32,830 nucleotides of DNA from Chitinophaga pinensis. Lineage in GTDB: Bacteria > Bacteroidota > Bacteroidia > CAMBQF01. The stretch covers positions 1 to 32,830 of the forward strand of contig CAMBQF010000021.1 in assembly GCA_945869825.1 (NCBI GenBank), read 5' to 3'. The notes under the pieces were generated by a model that saw nothing but the letters and a program-made list of their open reading frames with translations, ran no database searches and had not been told where the DNA came from. Below are positions 11,145 through 22,004 of the stretch, piece after piece. Numbering within the stretch: position 1 is the first letter of the stretch; each line of letters begins with the position of its first letter. The position numbers and the translations under genes are program-made.

Positions 11145-11190
11145 ACTCCTTTTTAGAGGGAGTGCCCGAACATACTAAGGGGTAGGGGTT
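11145..11190. repeat. Intergenic repeat, copy C (degenerate)
   Basis: Contains CTCCTTTTTAGAGGGAG, then TGCCCGAA and AGGGGTAGGGG. The AGGGGGAGTGCCCGAA core of copy D (13911-13926) is recognisable, but the second hairpin has decayed. It lies between the two lipoprotein genes and contributes the left arm of the terminator-like hairpin. Confidence 0.55.
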
Positions 11191-11213
11191 TTTTCCTTCC
11201 CCTTTTCTTTTTT
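11177..11213 (+). terminator. Terminator-like hairpin after lipoprotein 1
   Basis: AAGGGG (11177-11182) pairs with CCCCTT (11199-11204). An inner AGG/CCT stem follows one T-T mismatch, the loop is eight bases, and a T-rich tail runs through 11213. It would separate the two lipoprotein transcripts. It is built partly from the intergenic repeat. Confidence 0.5.
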
Positions 11214-11230
11214 CTATTTACTGAATTTTG

Positions 11231-11238
11231 TATATTTG
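11231..11238 (+). promoter_or_regulatory. Bacteroidota -7 promoter box (TATATTTG)
   Basis: Exact consensus match, 29 bases before the ATG of lipoprotein 2. The ten bases TATATTTGAA are identical to those before lipoprotein 1, which suggests that the promoter was duplicated with the gene. No -33 TTG is seen in the T/C-rich upstream stretch. Confidence 0.6.
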
Positions 11239-11267
11239 AATTAACATCAACCTACAATGCTTTGAAT

Positions 11268-11636
11268 ATGAAAAAATTTCTACCTTTTTTATTCCTTCTT
11301 TCAACTGTTCTTATTTGCTTTTCGGCTTGTAAAAAAGACGAAACCTGCGATGTACGTGTGTATGTAAAAAATGCTCAGGGCCAGAAAAAGAAAAATACAT
11401 GGGTTAAAATAGACCTTAGCCCTGGCACCCCTCCGGGTAATTTTACAGACAGGGTACCTGTGCAGCTAAATACAGGCGATAACGGCTTTGTAGATGCAGA
11501 GTTTTCACTTCCCGCTAATCTAATGGCATTTGTTTACGATTCTGTCAACGTAGCGCTTGTTGACCCTCCTATCGGACAGGCAGTTATTAAGCTAGAGCCG
11601 GGCGAAAACGTTACTGTAACAATTGATGTACCTTAG
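11268..11636 (+). CDS. Small lipoprotein, tandem paralogue 2
   Basis: 122 residues from the ATG at 11268; a TTG two codons upstream is less likely. The lipoprotein signal ends in FSAC with Cys21, then KKDETCDVRV. Shared with paralogue 1: MKKFL start, CKKDxTC after the lipid Cys, WVxxDxxxxTPP, VQLNTxxxGFVxAEFxLPA, YDSVxV, and a C-terminal IKLExGExV. The second Cys six residues after the lipidated one is conserved in both. The two therefore arose by tandem duplication. The mature domain is probably a small Ig-like or regulatory-like beta fold; no function is known. Confidence 0.83.
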   Translation: MKKFLPFLFLLSTVLICFSACKKDETCDVRVYVKNAQGQKKKNTWVKIDLSPGTPPGNFTDRVPVQLNTGDNGFVDAEFSLPANLMAFVYDSVNVALVDPPIGQAVIKLEPGENVTVTIDVP

Positions 11637-11680
11637 GTTTAACCAGGCAAAGGTGTGATTTAGAAATTGTTCGCATCTAA

Positions 11681-11719
11681 CTCGCCCCTAACCCCTATAA
11701 CCTATCCCCTCTATATCCC
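11681..11719. repeat. Pyrimidine-rich CCCCT repeat tract, possible copy of the intergenic repeat
   Basis: CTCGCCCCTAACCCCTATAA continues with CCTATCCCCTCTATATCCCC. Read on the minus strand, it resembles the GGGGTAGGGG and GGGCGAGGGG parts of copies C and D. It has no intact hairpin. It runs into the last codons of the gene on the minus strand at 11711. Confidence 0.35.
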
Positions 11720-12058
11720 CTGCTCTTTAAAATATTCAACTATGGCTTCGCGCATCAGCAAATGCTGTTGCGCAGGCTTTAGTGGCGGTAGCTTTTCGTT
11801 CAGTTTAAAGTGTGGCCAGTGATCTTCATCGCGGCCCTCAAACTCATAGTATCCGTAGCGTTCAAGCAAGGTGCAAATGGCAATATGCATTACAGCCAGC
11901 TTATCATCTTTCTTAAATTTCTGGAAACCCATTCCCAGTTCCTGCACCCCAATTAAAAATAATATGCCCTGCATATCAATAGGCGCGCCATCGCCAAATT
12001 GCTTGGATATAACCTCGCTAATACGTTTAAACTCATTATCTAATTCTTCGGTATTCAT
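11711..12058 (-). CDS. Conserved hypothetical protein, 115 aa
   Basis: A soluble, mainly helical protein without signal peptide or membrane segment. Notable segments are MQGILFLIGVQELGMGFQKF, AICTLLERYGYYEF and a C-terminal LPPLKPAQQHLLMREAIVEY. It looks like a conserved single-domain Bacteroidota protein, but I do not recognise a family or function. Its last codons overlap a CCCCT-rich tract that may be a repeat. A CCACAG/CTGTGG inverted repeat lies just upstream (12077-12094). Real coding is supported by length, composition and the lack of a better frame. Confidence 0.68.
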   Translation of the reverse strand: MNTEELDNEFKRISEVISKQFGDGAPIDMQGILFLIGVQELGMGFQKFKKDDKLAVMHIAICTLLERYGYYEFEGRDEDHWPHFKLNEKLPPLKPAQQHLLMREAIVEYFKEQGI

Positions 12059-12134
12059 TTCAAATCATTTTTAATTCCACAGTTAATGCTGTGGGGTATA
12101 CCCTCTCCTCTCTCCTAGCTCAACTCTCCTCTAA

Positions 12135-13253
12135 TTAAAACCACACAGCCAGGCTGCTAAACAGTACAGTGCTGTAATTAACGGGTAGGTTGCTGCGGGT
12201 AAAAATACCATTACGGCCTCCATAGCCGCGACCTTCAAAACGCAAGAGTACATTTTTTACAGGGCTATAGCCAAGGCCCAGTGTTCCGCTATAGGCTTCA
12301 AAAGCCCTCGCCTGCAGCTGGTTAGGTGCAGATAGTACTCCGTTAGGGTCGTTAAAATATTCTAAACGCCCGCTAAGGCTAAACTTATCGTTAAATTTAT
12401 AACGCGCAGCAGCATTTACGGTATACCAGGCATAATCGGGCTTGGCAGAGTTATACACCCCTTGCAAACCAATGTATGCTGTAGCGTTTACATCCCATTT
12501 ACCTGCTTGCCATGTTAAAAAGAAATCGTTGAAATAGCGTGCGGCCAGCCATTGCTGGTTTGGGCTTCCGGCATCGCCAGCAAAGGTGTTCCAGTATAGG
12601 TTCAGGTTGGGCTTAATTTTATATTGCAGCTGCGATGCAAAGGCCGTACTTCGGGCGCTGGCGCTATTAAAGTTGATGGTTTGCCAACCGTTTAAGCCAT
12701 ATAACGTAAGGGTAAACTTTGGTGATAACGGCATGGTTAATCGTAGGCCACTAACATAGTAAGGGGCATTTTCTGCCGCCAGCGACCGGCTATAAAGCAA
12801 TTGGTCTTTAGATATAGGTGTTTCATAAGTAAAGGGCGATGTAAATACCCCCACATCCAACCACATATTTTTATTTTTGCATAGTTTAAAGCCACCGTAG
12901 GTCTCAAGCAAAAAGCGGTTTAGCACATTTTCGCTGCCGTAGTTATCAATCATATATGTGCCATAGCCGGGCGTAAGTTGCAGGCGTACACGCTCGCTTC
13001 GGTACCCAATACCTAAGTAAGCCACGTTTATAGCAAACTGCCTTAGCCTTGCCGATACTGTAGCATATGGCCGCCTGTTGCTGTTGGGGTTAAATACATC
13101 AAAATTGTAGTACCCATCTACATAGCCTGATATTATAAGGGTGTCTTTAGACCCCGTTTCAGTGGCATTTGCTGAGGGGAATGGTATATTTATCTGGGCC
13201 TGGGCTACTACGCCAATAAGTAATAAAAGGGCCGCTATGGTATATCTTTTCAA
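12135..13253 (-). CDS. Outer membrane beta-barrel porin (OmpL-like, BBP2-type)
   Basis: 372 residues from a TTG start at 13253. The signal peptide begins there (KRYTIAALLLLIGVVAQAQ), and a promoter box 20 bases upstream leaves no room for a longer gene. The mature protein opens with SGYVDGYYNFDVFNPNSNRR, typical of the putative beta-barrel porin-2 family, and shows regular amphipathic strands (RVRLQLTPGYGTY, FTLTLYGLNGW, VLLRFEGRGYGG). It ends in SSLAVWF, a C-terminal aromatic residue as expected for the outer-membrane insertion signal. It should form a diffusion channel; the substrate is unknown. It is transcribed alone. Confidence 0.85.
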   Translation of the reverse strand: MKRYTIAALLLLIGVVAQAQINIPFPSANATETGSKDTLIISGYVDGYYNFDVFNPNSNRRPYATVSARLRQFAINVAYLGIGYRSERVRLQLTPGYGTYMIDNYGSENVLNRFLLETYGGFKLCKNKNMWLDVGVFTSPFTYETPISKDQLLYSRSLAAENAPYYVSGLRLTMPLSPKFTLTLYGLNGWQTINFNSASARSTAFASQLQYKIKPNLNLYWNTFAGDAGSPNQQWLAARYFNDFFLTWQAGKWDVNATAYIGLQGVYNSAKPDYAWYTVNAAARYKFNDKFSLSGRLEYFNDPNGVLSAPNQLQARAFEAYSGTLGLGYSPVKNVLLRFEGRGYGGRNGIFTRSNLPVNYSTVLFSSLAVWF

Positions 13254-17379: not shown

Positions 17380-19176
17380 TTAGTGGCCTTCGTCCATCTC
17401 GCCGTCTCCCATCGGTATGTTTTGCGGAACAAAGTCTTTTTCTTTACCTGGCTTGCTGTAATCATAAGCCCAACGATAAACATGTGGAATTTCTCCGGGC
17501 CAGTTACCATGCATATGTTCTACAGGGGCTGTCCACTCTAGGGTATTAGAGTTCCATGGGTTTTGTGGAGCTTTAGGGCCGCGCCAAATGCTGTAGAAGA
17601 AGTTGAACAGGAACAAAGCCTGTGCAGCCGCTGCTAATATGGCAAATGATGTAACTAATACGTTAATGTCAACTAAGCCGTCAAACATAGGGAATTCAGT
17701 GTTGGCATAATAACGGCGTGGTACACCTGCTAAGCCTAAAAAGTGTTGTGGGAAGAATACACCGTAAGCACCAACAAATGTTAACCAAAAGTGGGCATAA
17801 CCTATCTTCTTGTTCATCATACGGCCATACATGCGCGGAAACCAATGGTAAATACCAGCAAACATACCAAATATGGCAGAGCTACCCATTACAATATGGA
17901 AGTGGGCTACAACGAAGTATGTATCGTGTACGTTAATGTCAAGGGCAGAGTCGCCAAGGATAATACCTGTAACACCACCAGTAATAAAGAACGACACAAG
18001 GCCGATACCAAACATCATGGCTGGAGTAAGCACCAGGTTACCTTTCCATAGGGTTGTCAGGTAGTTAAATACTTTAACGGCTGATGGGATAGCTACCAAC
18101 AGGGTTGTAAATACGAATACTGAACCTAAGAATGGATTCATACCTGTAATAAACATGTGGTGGCCCCAAACGATAAACGAAAGGAAAGCGATGCCTAACA
18201 TTGATGCAATCATGGCGCGGTAACCGAAAATCGGCTTGCGCGAGTTGGTTGCTATTACCTCTGATGCTAAACCGAGAGCCGGAAGTAATACAATGTATAC
18301 CTCGGGATGGCCTAAAAACCAGAATAAGTGTTGGTAAAGAATTGGGCTACCACCGGTTTGCTCTAGTGCCTGGCCTCCAATAAATATATCAGACAGGTAA
18401 AAGCTAGTACCCATACTGCGGTCAAAAATAAGAAGCAATGCGGCAGCTAAAAGCACAGGGAATGATAACACACCTAAAATAGCAGTGATAAAGAAAGCCC
18501 AGATTGTAAGTGGTAGGCGGGTCATTTTCATGCCTACGGTGCGTAGGTTGATAATGGTAACAATGTAGTTAAGGCTACCCAGTAATGATGATACAATAAA
18601 TATTGACATAGATACTAACCACAACGTCATACCCAAGCCTGAACCTGGCATTGCCTGAGGTAATGCACTTAACGGAGGGTAAACTGTCCAACCGCCTGAT
18701 GCAGGTCCTGTTTCAATTACTACTGAGTAAACCATAATGGCGCTAGACACAAAGAAGAACCAGTATGAAAGCATATTTAGGAAACCCGATGCCATATCGC
18801 GGGCACCAATTTGAAGAGGTATAAGAAGGTTACTAAACGTGCCACTTAAACCACCAGTAAGCACAAAGAATACCATGATGGTACCGTGTATGGTTACCAG
18901 GGCAAGGTAAAACGATGGGTCTAATACACCGTCTTTTGCCCATTTACCTAAAAATGTTTCTAAAATAGGGAACTTTTCGCCGGGGTAAGCCAATTGCAAT
19001 CGGAATGCAGTTGACATAAGCATGGCAATAATACCCATTATAATAGCAGTTATTAAAAACTGCTTAGATATCATTTTATGGTCTTGGCTAAAAACGTATT
19101 TGTTAAAAAACGTTTCGTGGTGGTGGTGATCTTGATGATCGTCCGCTGCGTGCCCATGATCAATTACGTGAGACAT
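17380..19176 (-). CDS. coxA: Cytochrome c oxidase subunit I
   Basis: 598 residues, about 12 membrane helices. Heme a ligands H97 and H427, heme a3 ligand H425, CuB ligands H290/H339/H340 and the cross-linked Y294 are all present. GHPEVY (E292) marks a type A1 oxidase with the D-channel end, R126-D127-M with N134 forms the channel entrance, and K368 belongs to the K channel. The Mg-site pair H417/D418 is kept. The N-terminus carries an unusual His-rich tail (about ten His in the first 20 residues, including HHHH at 17-20). It is the last gene of the act-cox operon, 43 bases after coxB, and takes electrons from cytochrome c or directly from ACIII. Confidence 0.96.
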   Translation of the reverse strand: MSHVIDHGHAADDHQDHHHHETFFNKYVFSQDHKMISKQFLITAIIMGIIAMLMSTAFRLQLAYPGEKFPILETFLGKWAKDGVLDPSFYLALVTIHGTIMVFFVLTGGLSGTFSNLLIPLQIGARDMASGFLNMLSYWFFFVSSAIMVYSVVIETGPASGGWTVYPPLSALPQAMPGSGLGMTLWLVSMSIFIVSSLLGSLNYIVTIINLRTVGMKMTRLPLTIWAFFITAILGVLSFPVLLAAALLLIFDRSMGTSFYLSDIFIGGQALEQTGGSPILYQHLFWFLGHPEVYIVLLPALGLASEVIATNSRKPIFGYRAMIASMLGIAFLSFIVWGHHMFITGMNPFLGSVFVFTTLLVAIPSAVKVFNYLTTLWKGNLVLTPAMMFGIGLVSFFITGGVTGIILGDSALDINVHDTYFVVAHFHIVMGSSAIFGMFAGIYHWFPRMYGRMMNKKIGYAHFWLTFVGAYGVFFPQHFLGLAGVPRRYYANTEFPMFDGLVDINVLVTSFAILAAAAQALFLFNFFYSIWRGPKAPQNPWNSNTLEWTAPVEHMHGNWPGEIPHVYRWAYDYSKPGKEKDFVPQNIPMGDGEMDEGH

Positions 19177-19219: not shown

Positions 19220-20644
19220 TTATTTAGCAGGCTTAGCTGTTGGTGCTTTTGCCATCGTTGTATCGGTTGCAGGCACCAGTGTTTGGGTTATAGTGCTGTC
19301 TGCAGCAGGCGGTGCTAATAATGCAGCCATTTGCGTAGCAAATGTTTTTTGTTCTTTAATCCAATTATCATAGCTTGCCTGGTCTTCAACCACAATAACC
19401 ATTTTCATGTTGTAGTGTGCGTTACCACAAATTTTGTTACATAACAAATAGTAATCAAAAGTTGGGTTTTTAGTTTTCTCGCGCATTTGGGCCGTAGTAA
19501 TAGTTGGCGTAAATGCGAAGTTTGTTTTCATACCCGGAACAGCATTCATTTGTACACGGAAGTGTGGCATGTAAGCAGAGTGGATAACATCTTGCGCACG
19601 GAACTGGAATAAAACTGCTTTATTTACGGGTAAGTGGAATTCGCCTTTAACCAATAAGTCGTCTCCAGATGATGTAAACCTTTTCTTAGCAAAAGTTTCT
19701 ATGCTCCTTTTCATACGGCTTAATCGCTCAAGTTCATCAACAATAGCACGTACAGGTTTGCTGTTACCTGCCCATGCATATGGGTCTTCATGATGGCCAC
19801 CACCGTGCTCACCCTCTTTGGCGTGCGCTTCTGGGTTTGGTGCGGGGGTGTGGTGTTCAGCGCCTGCATCGTGGCTGGCGGCTCCGTGTGCATGAGGGTC
19901 TACCGGTTTAGACTTTTTAGGAAATATTATACCCTCCAGCCTTACCTGCTCATCAAGTTTGGCACGCAAAGCAACACTGTCTTTAGTAATTTCAGCTAAA
20001 CGGTCGGTAATGGCTTCTGGTGTAATTAGGCCTAATGCGTTGCTTCCGTTTATCATTTGAAAGTTAGCATCGCCCAGTTTTTTGTCGGCTCCGGCGTAGC
20101 GGGCTGTCCAGTCAAACTGACGAGCATACAGTTCAATATTTACGGGGTTTTCATTAGCCGAAATTGAAGTATGGTCTGTAACATCATTCCATACACGTAA
20201 ACCATAAATAATAAGTGCAGAAAGTACAATTGCCGGAACAACAGTCCATATAGCCTCTAACTTGTTGCTGTGTGCAAAAAAGTCGGCTTTATTGGTTTTT
20301 TTGTAGCGGTATTTGTTTAAAAAGAAAAACAACAATACGTTGCAAATAATAAATGGTATACCAATGATAACCATTGTTACATCCCAAAGCTGGTCAATTT
20401 CTACACCATGCTTAGAAGCCGGCTCAGGCAAAAGCTTATCGCCCCACTTATAAATGCACCACAAGATGAAGGTAAAGAAGCCTATGATAAACACAATGCC
20501 TAAACGTGCGTTCATACGGCTATCTGCTTCGGTAATTACCGGTGCTTCATCGGGCCTCAACTCTCTCGATAGCTCGTAAATTTTAAGCAATTGAAAAATT
20601 GCTACTACGGCTAGGATGATTATTGCTAATATCAGAAAATCCAT
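19220..20644 (-). CDS. coxB: Cytochrome c oxidase subunit II with His-rich insertion
   Basis: 474 residues, longer than typical subunit II. Four hydrophobic helices (about 2-20, 47-67, 88-109, 132-150); the last two are the standard pair, the first two an N-terminal extension. The CuA domain holds H355, C402, C406, H410 and M413 (CNKICGNAHYNM). The usual Glu between the two Cys is Lys here. Between the aromatic strand FDWTARYAG (178-186) and the rest of the CuA fold (from about 327) lies an insertion of about 140 residues with a charged helical part and a His/Gly/Ala stretch (251-285). A Pro/Ala/Thr-rich tail closes the protein. It receives electrons for coxA. Confidence 0.94.
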   Translation of the reverse strand: MDFLILAIIILAVVAIFQLLKIYELSRELRPDEAPVITEADSRMNARLGIVFIIGFFTFILWCIYKWGDKLLPEPASKHGVEIDQLWDVTMVIIGIPFIICNVLLFFFLNKYRYKKTNKADFFAHSNKLEAIWTVVPAIVLSALIIYGLRVWNDVTDHTSISANENPVNIELYARQFDWTARYAGADKKLGDANFQMINGSNALGLITPEAITDRLAEITKDSVALRAKLDEQVRLEGIIFPKKSKPVDPHAHGAASHDAGAEHHTPAPNPEAHAKEGEHGGGHHEDPYAWAGNSKPVRAIVDELERLSRMKRSIETFAKKRFTSSGDDLLVKGEFHLPVNKAVLFQFRAQDVIHSAYMPHFRVQMNAVPGMKTNFAFTPTITTAQMREKTKNPTFDYYLLCNKICGNAHYNMKMVIVVEDQASYDNWIKEQKTFATQMAALLAPPAADSTITQTLVPATDTTMAKAPTAKPAK

Positions 20645-20667
20645 GTTGTTATATCTTCGTTAGCTTA

Positions 20668-20802
20668 TTATTGCTGGTTATTAATATCTTCTTTCTTTTC
20701 TATATACTCACTGTACAGTGTGCGCGATAGTTTTTTAATTTGAATAGCTTGCGAGGTTGCTACCAACCCTAAAATGCTTACTGTCAAAATTAAAAATGCC
20801 AT
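20668..20802 (-). CDS. Small 44-aa membrane protein between actF and coxB
   Basis: The ATG at 20802 starts a 44-codon frame with stop TAA at 20668-20670. The protein begins MAFLILTVSILGLVATSQAI, one hydrophobic helix, and continues with QIKKLSRTLYSEY and a charged KKEDINNQQ end. It starts five bases after the actF stop and ends 23 bases before the coxB ATG, so it is in step with the operon; no other frame fills this space. The first helix is followed by basic residues, which predicts an N-out/C-in orientation. It may be a small accessory subunit of the ACIII-oxidase complex, or a degraded remnant. No family is recognised. Confidence 0.62.
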   Translation of the reverse strand: MAFLILTVSILGLVATSQAIQIKKLSRTLYSEYIEKKEDINNQQ

Positions 20803-20807
20803 AGCTA

Positions 20808-22004
20808 CTATATGTGGTGGTGTAAACTCTCTTCCAAAAATGGGTGGTTTTTAACCTCCGTTGGTGCTTTAGCCAGGCTCCTGTGTACTATAAACAGGAA
20901 TAAGCCTAAGAAACCAAGGAAGGTACCTATCTCCATTATGCCGTAGTGTAGTTTTTCGCCTACAGTACCTGGCATTACTATAATAAACATATCAGACCAG
21001 TGACCAACAAATATTACTGTACCTACTACTGCTAATATACCTGCGTGGCGTTTTGCGTCGCGCATCATTAACATGAAGAATGGAAACAAAAAGTTGATTA
21101 CAATGTTCCCCAGCATTAATGGTTTATAGCTTTCAAAACGAGCCATAAAGTAGGTTACTTCTTCAGGTATGTTTGCATACCAGATAAGCATAAACTGAGA
21201 GAACCATATGTAGGTCCAGAATACTGAGAAGGCAAACATAAATTTACCAATATCGTGCAGGTGGTTTTCATTTACACCAGGCAAGTATCCTTTGCCTTTC
21301 AGGTATACTGTAAATAATACAATAGTAATAAGACCGCTAATAAACATACCAGCAAAAATGTACCACCCAAACATGGTAGAAAACCAGTGTGTATCTATTG
21401 ATAAAATCCAGTGCCACGCTGATGTTGAAGATGATACCGCGAAGAATACCACAAACCATGCGGCCATAAAGTAGTTCTTCATGTGGTTAGTTGTGCCACC
21501 AATCTGGTCTTCTTCAATAGAGCGTTTGCGGAATACCCATGTAAAAGCACACCATCCGCCCAGGTAAATAATTGTAGCAATCCAAAAAAATGGCAGGTTT
21601 AAGAAACCAGATTTACCTGCAATAATTTCATCATAATGCTCGCTTGCGGGGTCCATGATACCTTCGTGTTGCCAGTGGTATATGTGGTGGCCGCCAAGTG
21701 CTAGTACAACCGCAAATATGGCCGAACCTACAAATATGTATTGGCTAATGCCTTCAAATACGCGTTTAATAGCTGTGTACCAGCCCGATTGGCCAATGTA
21801 CTGAACAGCCATAAAGAAAGTAGCAGCCAGCGATATGGCCATAAAAAAGAAGGAGTTAATGAACATATTGGCCCAAAAGCGGGTAGCATTATGTCCTTCT
21901 CCAAAAGGGTTTAAGGTAACTGCCCCGTAGATTATCGCCAAAAGTCCTACACCCATTAGGGCGAAGATTATTTGTTTTGTGCGTGTCGATATAACGTAAT
22001 TCAT
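20808..22004 (-). CDS. actF: Alternative complex III subunit ActF (NrfD-like membrane subunit)
   Basis: 398 residues with about ten membrane helices, for example IIFALMGVGLLAIIYGAVTL near the start. Characteristic ACIII segments are WHWILSIDTHWFSTMFGWY around 195-213 and FWTYIWFSQFMLIWYANIPEE around 260-280. ActF is a paralogue of the quinone-binding ActC and forms part of the membrane core, with a possible proton path. It has no cofactor motif of its own. The C-terminus is EESLHHHI. It follows actE after 20 bases and precedes the small 44-aa frame by five bases. Confidence 0.92.
   Translation of the reverse strand: MNYVISTRTKQIIFALMGVGLLAIIYGAVTLNPFGEGHNATRFWANMFINSFFFMAISLAATFFMAVQYIGQSGWYTAIKRVFEGISQYIFVGSAIFAVVLALGGHHIYHWQHEGIMDPASEHYDEIIAGKSGFLNLPFFWIATIIYLGGWCAFTWVFRKRSIEEDQIGGTTNHMKNYFMAAWFVVFFAVSSSTSAWHWILSIDTHWFSTMFGWYIFAGMFISGLITIVLFTVYLKGKGYLPGVNENHLHDIGKFMFAFSVFWTYIWFSQFMLIWYANIPEEVTYFMARFESYKPLMLGNIVINFLFPFFMLMMRDAKRHAGILAVVGTVIFVGHWSDMFIIVMPGTVGEKLHYGIMEIGTFLGFLGLFLFIVHRSLAKAPTEVKNHPFLEESLHHHI

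Follow-up and report, generated by a model that had tools for sequence, protein, structure and literature searches.

The small gene and its neighbours

The window, the whole 32,830-nt stretch of DNA that was analysed, carries an act-cox operon on its minus strand. The gene for ACIII subunit F, actF (20808..22004), was recognized by the match of its product to 6btm_F of Flavobacterium johnsoniae (E 2.5e-111). It is followed downstream by coxB (19220..20644), which encodes subunit II of an aa3 oxidase, a COX2 protein by Pfam search with four predicted transmembrane (TM) helices and the CuA ligand motif CNKICGNAHYNM, and by coxA (17380..19176), which encodes subunit I. CoxA has the GHPEVY motif, which we take to mark an A1-type oxidase. 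The names actF and coxB given to the flanking genes in a preliminary description of the window, made without database searches, are therefore correct.

Between actF and coxB lies a small open reading frame, here called smORF (20668..20802, minus strand, read 20802→20668), which comprises 44 codons from its ATG and translates as MAFLILTVSILGLVATSQAIQIKKLSRTLYSEYIEKKEDINNQQ. The actF stop is TAG, and five bases (TAGCT) separate actF from the smORF ATG. At the other end a double stop, TAATAA, closes the frame and is kept in the genus; its second stop opens a 23-nt spacer (20645..20667, minus strand) that has 0-1 substitutions among three genomes and leads to the coxB start at 20644. The smORF reading frame differs from the frames of both neighbours and, together with the conserved double stop, shows that the smORF is an extension of neither actF nor coxB; readthrough or a frameshift fusion with coxB is ruled out on the same grounds. 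The predicted peptide has one N-terminal hydrophobic stretch followed by a charged tail, and the structure model is one helix spanning residues 2-43 (mean pLDDT 86.7). Thus, both the frame filling the gap 5 nt after the actF stop and the single hydrophobic helix with its charged tail were read correctly in the preliminary description.

Three genomes of the genus, which make up the whole order within the collection examined, each have the 44-codon frame at the same locus; the lineage is represented there by assembled genomes only. In the two relatives of the window genome, a pond Bacteroidetes MAG and Sphingobacteriales bacterium JAD_PAG50586_3, identity to the window copy is 95% and 73%. Pairwise dN/dS among the three genomes is 0.10, 0.12 and 0.18, whereas the shifted frames give the opposite pattern, with higher apparent dN/dS. 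These ratios are conservative, because the 5' ends of the operon genes are synonymously constrained in the genus, such that dS is if anything underestimated. Base differences fall mostly at third codon positions (6/7 and 17/31). With the same base changes placed at random, 2% of trials in the closest pair, and 0.005% and 0.02% in the two distant pairs, kept the frame intact with equally few amino-acid changes. To judge from these substitutions, the smORF amino acids are under purifying selection and the smORF is almost certainly a coding gene and not a chance frame. The earlier proposal of a real, easily overlooked single-helix gene in the act-cox operon is upheld by the equal length of the frame in 3/3 genomes and by dN/dS of 0.10-0.18.

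Relationship to the first helix of CoxB

The main point, overlooked in the preliminary description, is that the smORF product appears to be a paralogue of the first helix (helix 0) of the adjacent CoxB. A gapless Met-to-Met alignment pairs the smORF segment MAFLILTVSILGLVATSQAIQIKKLSRTL with CoxB MDFLILAIIILAVVAIFQLLKIYELSREL, encoded by coxB codons 1-29 (20558..20644, minus strand), and 15 of the 29 residues are identical. The BLOSUM score of this alignment is 62, and the maximum was 52 among 5000 composition-preserving shuffles in which helix and tail segments were shuffled separately, so that 0/5000 scored as high. Apart from the smORF itself, a search of its own 3-Mb genome matched only the beginning of the neighbouring coxB, with the first residues of both aligned; the E-value of 0.09 is weak taken alone, because the sequence is short. 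In both sister genomes the coxB start is likewise the only non-self match, and in a comparison of the smORF with the N-termini of approximately 1,430 ORFs at related loci, those ranking at the top all belonged to CoxB. The resemblance therefore exceeds both that of shuffled sequences and that of other proteins.

The two sequences share the same start and a hydrophobic helix, and the identity then runs past the hydrophobic core into the polar juxtamembrane Q...I..LSR.L, a likeness that one would not predict for just any membrane helix. The smORF product differs from the Bacteroidota CoxB in being a stand-alone protein of 44 residues with its own charged tail; only residues 1-29 are CoxB-related, no COX2 family is matched, and there is no second helix, COX2_TM domain or CuA domain. 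On the strength of these comparisons homology between the smORF product and CoxB helix 0 is very probable, within the limits set by 29 aligned membrane-helix residues and a close family in only three genomes.

Other searches yielded no accepted relative. The smORF sequence matched no PDB chain at E<=10; with the smORF profile the matches were confined to potassium transporters and a designed toroid protein, and these were taken as chance. In the Pfam/NCBIfam search only a sub-threshold match, to DUF2721, was returned (E 0.042, 14.2 bits vs a cut-off of 28.3).

In a CoxB model based on 30 aligned CoxB sequences, four TM helices (2-29, 39-70, 78-111 and 127-156) precede the copper domain, and the first is modelled at pLDDT about 90. 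The canonical COX2_TM domain, with its two helices, is assigned by Pfam to residues 71-151, so that helices 2-29 and 39-70 are extra. Comparison of the model with the PDB returned ordinary subunit II proteins only, with poor overall rmsd, and no outstanding solved relative with extra N-terminal helices.

Within residues 7-29, positions 11, 14, 15, 18, 22, 25, 26 and 29 are the same in CoxB, in the window smORF and in the most divergent smORF copy. They fall on a single face of the helix (R=0.80, reached in 8e-5 of random draws), the 7-29 interval having been picked after inspection and the 2-29 interval for the pair giving 0.02. At several of these positions CoxB is itself conserved throughout the class (L11 97%, A15 77%, Q18 77% and L25 83%). 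The smORF is without three residues that are conserved in CoxB helix 0, namely L19, K/R21 and E24, and for this reason should not dock identically. Together, the shared and the missing residues suggest that the smORF copy has kept one face of the helix and changed another. By the positive-inside rule, both helices are expected to lie N-out/C-in.

Distribution of frames in the actF–coxB gap

At 60 Bacteroidia loci from about 35 families the actF–coxB gap has a median length of 40 nt, is usually 3–80 nt and is usually empty. An equivalent frame was present at none of these 60 loci, and likewise at none of the closest 30 loci or in the named genomes. The preliminary description had looked to relatives for an equal-length frame with synonymous bias: such a frame exists in the three genomes of the genus, but outside it the gap is short and empty. 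Persistence of the frame across other Bacteroidota act-cox loci is accordingly not supported, the gap being normally empty, with one parallel case in another genus. The smORF gene is lineage-restricted, and there is no support for a Bacteroidota-wide "supercomplex linker".

The parallel case concerns one distant genus, in which 3 of 45 genomes carry a similar short CoxB-like frame in the gap. Two of these frames (G296 and G297) are 46 and 45 aa long and 53% identical to each other; the third (G262) is related to them, with a shift of frame after about codon 34. All three match their own CoxB N-termini above segment shuffles. Their pN/pS is about 0.5-0.8 with near-saturated sites, and selection is less clear than in the window genus. 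The window-genus smORF scores 62 against its own CoxB and 35-46 against the parallel small frames, and the parallel frames reach about the same score with their CoxB (44-47). Of independent duplications and one old duplication, the scores appear to fit the former. It is tentatively suggested that the oxidase has, at least two independent times, recruited a free-standing duplicate of its own subunit's helix at the actF–coxB junction in Bacteroidia, as a subunit or as an assembly competitor.

In G262 (L032 1337-1495) the stop of the small frame overlaps the coxB start codon (ATGA), and the C-terminal motif EQDHPFTG of the G296/G297 family persists in the other frame; the shift is either real or an assembly error.

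Other apparent candidates were set aside. A short-frame match in G278 is a coxB cut by the contig end and not a small gene. Gap ORFs in G188, G272, G048 and G210 are not CoxB-like and were left out of the count. Among the latter, G210 (L036 1345-1485) has a 165-nt actF–coxB gap with a 46-aa frame (MASVLRSTLRNALARLKAAAERALGS...) that is not hydrophobic and is unrelated to CoxB, and in G272 (L254) the gap of about 303 nt before coxB is taken up by a 94-aa frame consisting of near-perfect repeats (TKLDSKETNLDSHD...). Long apparent gaps at Pedobacter/Mucilaginibacter-like loci, several of which were unparsed, seem due to a longer CoxB N-terminus and not to a small gene.

Comparison with known small subunits

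By analogy, the closest functional precedent may be subunit IIa (CbaD) of B-type (ba3) oxidases, a single helix of 34-78 aa that is encoded directly upstream of subunit II, is often unannotated, and provides a helix whose location is related to that of a helix of subunit II (PMC3128077). That study reports no similarity in sequence between IIa and subunit II helices, and left a fission or fusion origin open for that reason (PMC3128077). The smORF likewise encodes a single helix, within the 34-78 aa range, directly upstream of subunit II. IIa, however, occurs together with a subunit I of B type and a subunit II that has one helix, whereas the smORF is found with an A1-type CoxA and a CoxB of four predicted helices; it retains sequence similarity to a subunit II helix; and it lacks the IIa motif PX1-3GT/A (PMC3128077), having no proline at all.

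CydX is another very small and often unannotated protein, with conserved residues on one helix face and a YxxWxxG motif (PMC4325964). CydX/CydY of cytochrome bd oxidase and the smORF product are alike as tiny one-helix proteins with a charged tail encoded in an oxidase operon, but the oxidases are unrelated, and the smORF, which contains neither Trp nor YxxWxxG, lies in an act-cox and not a cydAB operon. To our knowledge, CydX is not a copy of any piece of CydA or CydB. The smORF product would, on these analogies, work like subunit IIa or CydX while belonging to neither family.

The poorly known small ACIII subunit ActG is relevant by position, its gene lying right after actF in the order actABCDEFG (PMC3150298). 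It has one predicted helix, gave no density in the R. marinus cryo-EM map and is not present in all clusters (PMC5928083). The smORF similarly lies directly after actF and encodes one predicted TM helix, but it is CoxB-like; the comparison with ActG is by description and PDB-chain search only. Subunit IV (COX4_pro) of aa3 oxidases is also a small membrane subunit of the oxidase, but the smORF has no match to PF03626, and a separate COX4_pro gene exists at G000:C80. There, at 11180-12671 (L260-L262), two adjacent COX3-family open frames (201 and 238 aa) accompany COX4_pro, apart from the act-cox operon.

Proposed function and alternatives

From sequence comparison it is proposed, with moderate confidence, that in this lineage the smORF is translated into an accessory subunit with a single helix, belonging to the aa3 oxidase or to the ACIII–aa3 supercomplex, and that it was derived from the 5' end of coxB by a partial duplication. 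The proposal draws on the paralogy, the selection on the peptide, the tight operon spacing of 5 and 23 nt, the parallel gap frames and the precedent of subunit IIa. The duplication would have comprised the helix and juxtamembrane tail without the copper domain. Encoded in the same operon, the peptide would be synthesized shortly before CoxB, would insert into the membrane N-out/C-in as CoxB helix 0 does, and would dock via the face shared with CoxB (L11, V14, A15, Q18, I22, L25, S26 and L29), either beside CoxB or in a groove on subunit I or ActF equivalent to the site of CoxB helix 0. There it may stabilize the oxidase or the contact between oxidase and ACIII.

Several considerations count against a subunit. 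CoxB retains its own helix, such that nothing obvious is missing from the oxidase, and since most Bacteroidia are without the gene, it must be dispensable for a working ACIII-aa3. Ordinary subunits III and IV are already encoded on another contig, so that the smORF is no replacement for either.

Tiny single-helix respiratory subunits are routinely missed, and their origins are mostly obscure. As the similarity between smORF and CoxB is still readable, it could be followed directly at this locus how a small oxidase subunit arises when part of a gene is duplicated. Should the subunit reading hold, this would be a single-helix oxidase subunit with a visible origin from its host subunit's own helix, and the smORF is a concrete candidate sequence for ACIII–aa3 supercomplex maps and mass spectra.

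Alternatively, the peptide might be an assembly placeholder or chaperone, which holds the CoxB helix 0 site on subunit I or ActF, hands it over and is absent from the finished complex. One face of the CoxB helix is copied, the gene lies directly before coxB and would be translated first, and the absence of L19, K21 and E24 might befit a weaker, displaceable copy. Yet a stoichiometric subunit would fit expression from the shared operon, presumably at a similar level, no less well, and a placeholder is considered unlikely.

A supercomplex linker in the place, and perhaps the role, of ActG is distinctly unlikely, even though the position after actF and the single predicted helix agree with descriptions of that subunit (PMC3150298, PMC5928083). 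The sequence comparisons point to CoxB and not to an ACIII subunit, and a paralogue of CoxB is more suggestive of the oxidase than of a neutral linker position. No PDB chain matched the smORF at E<=10, in a collection that includes ACIII structures but not certainly an ActG chain. Moreover, the F. johnsoniae ACIII-aa3 contact is on oxidase subunit III and not subunit II (PMC8361435), so that the linker reading gains no particular support from it.

There is also little likelihood that the smORF, though a genuine gene, encodes a small membrane protein with some unrelated function and resembles CoxB in its helix by chance. Hydrophobic helices have low complexity and the own-genome E-value is modest, but the match is ungapped from residue 1 to residue 1 with the very next gene, takes in the polar juxtamembrane motif, was equalled by no segment-preserving shuffle and outranks the other N-termini compared.

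Finally, a regulatory leader, the translation of which controls coxB by coupling while the peptide sequence matters little, would account for the near-invariance of the DNA between the end of the smORF and coxB codon ~42, but is highly improbable given that selection acts on the smORF amino acids, that 5'-end conservation is raised at other operon genes also and hence is not smORF-specific, and that the coxB-start stretch, rejected as an RNA element, has no Rfam match and an unremarkable folding energy (z -0.71).

Conserved gene starts in the operon

Among the three genomes, DNA identity is approximately 92-97% at 20706-20516, 19176-19006 and 22819-22540, vs an average of 79% over about 10 kb. 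These stretches are the 5' ends of coxB and coxA and the junction of the actD end with the actE start. For actC, D, E, F, coxB and coxA, third-position identity in the closest pair is 0.91-0.98 over codons 1-45, vs 0.63-0.79 over codons 46-150. Synonymous constraint at the gene starts of this operon is thus unusually long. The near-invariant stretch of coxB also contains, at about codons 35-39 (near 20530-20542), the perfect palindrome CGGTAATTACCG of 12 bp, which is present in 3/3 genomes.
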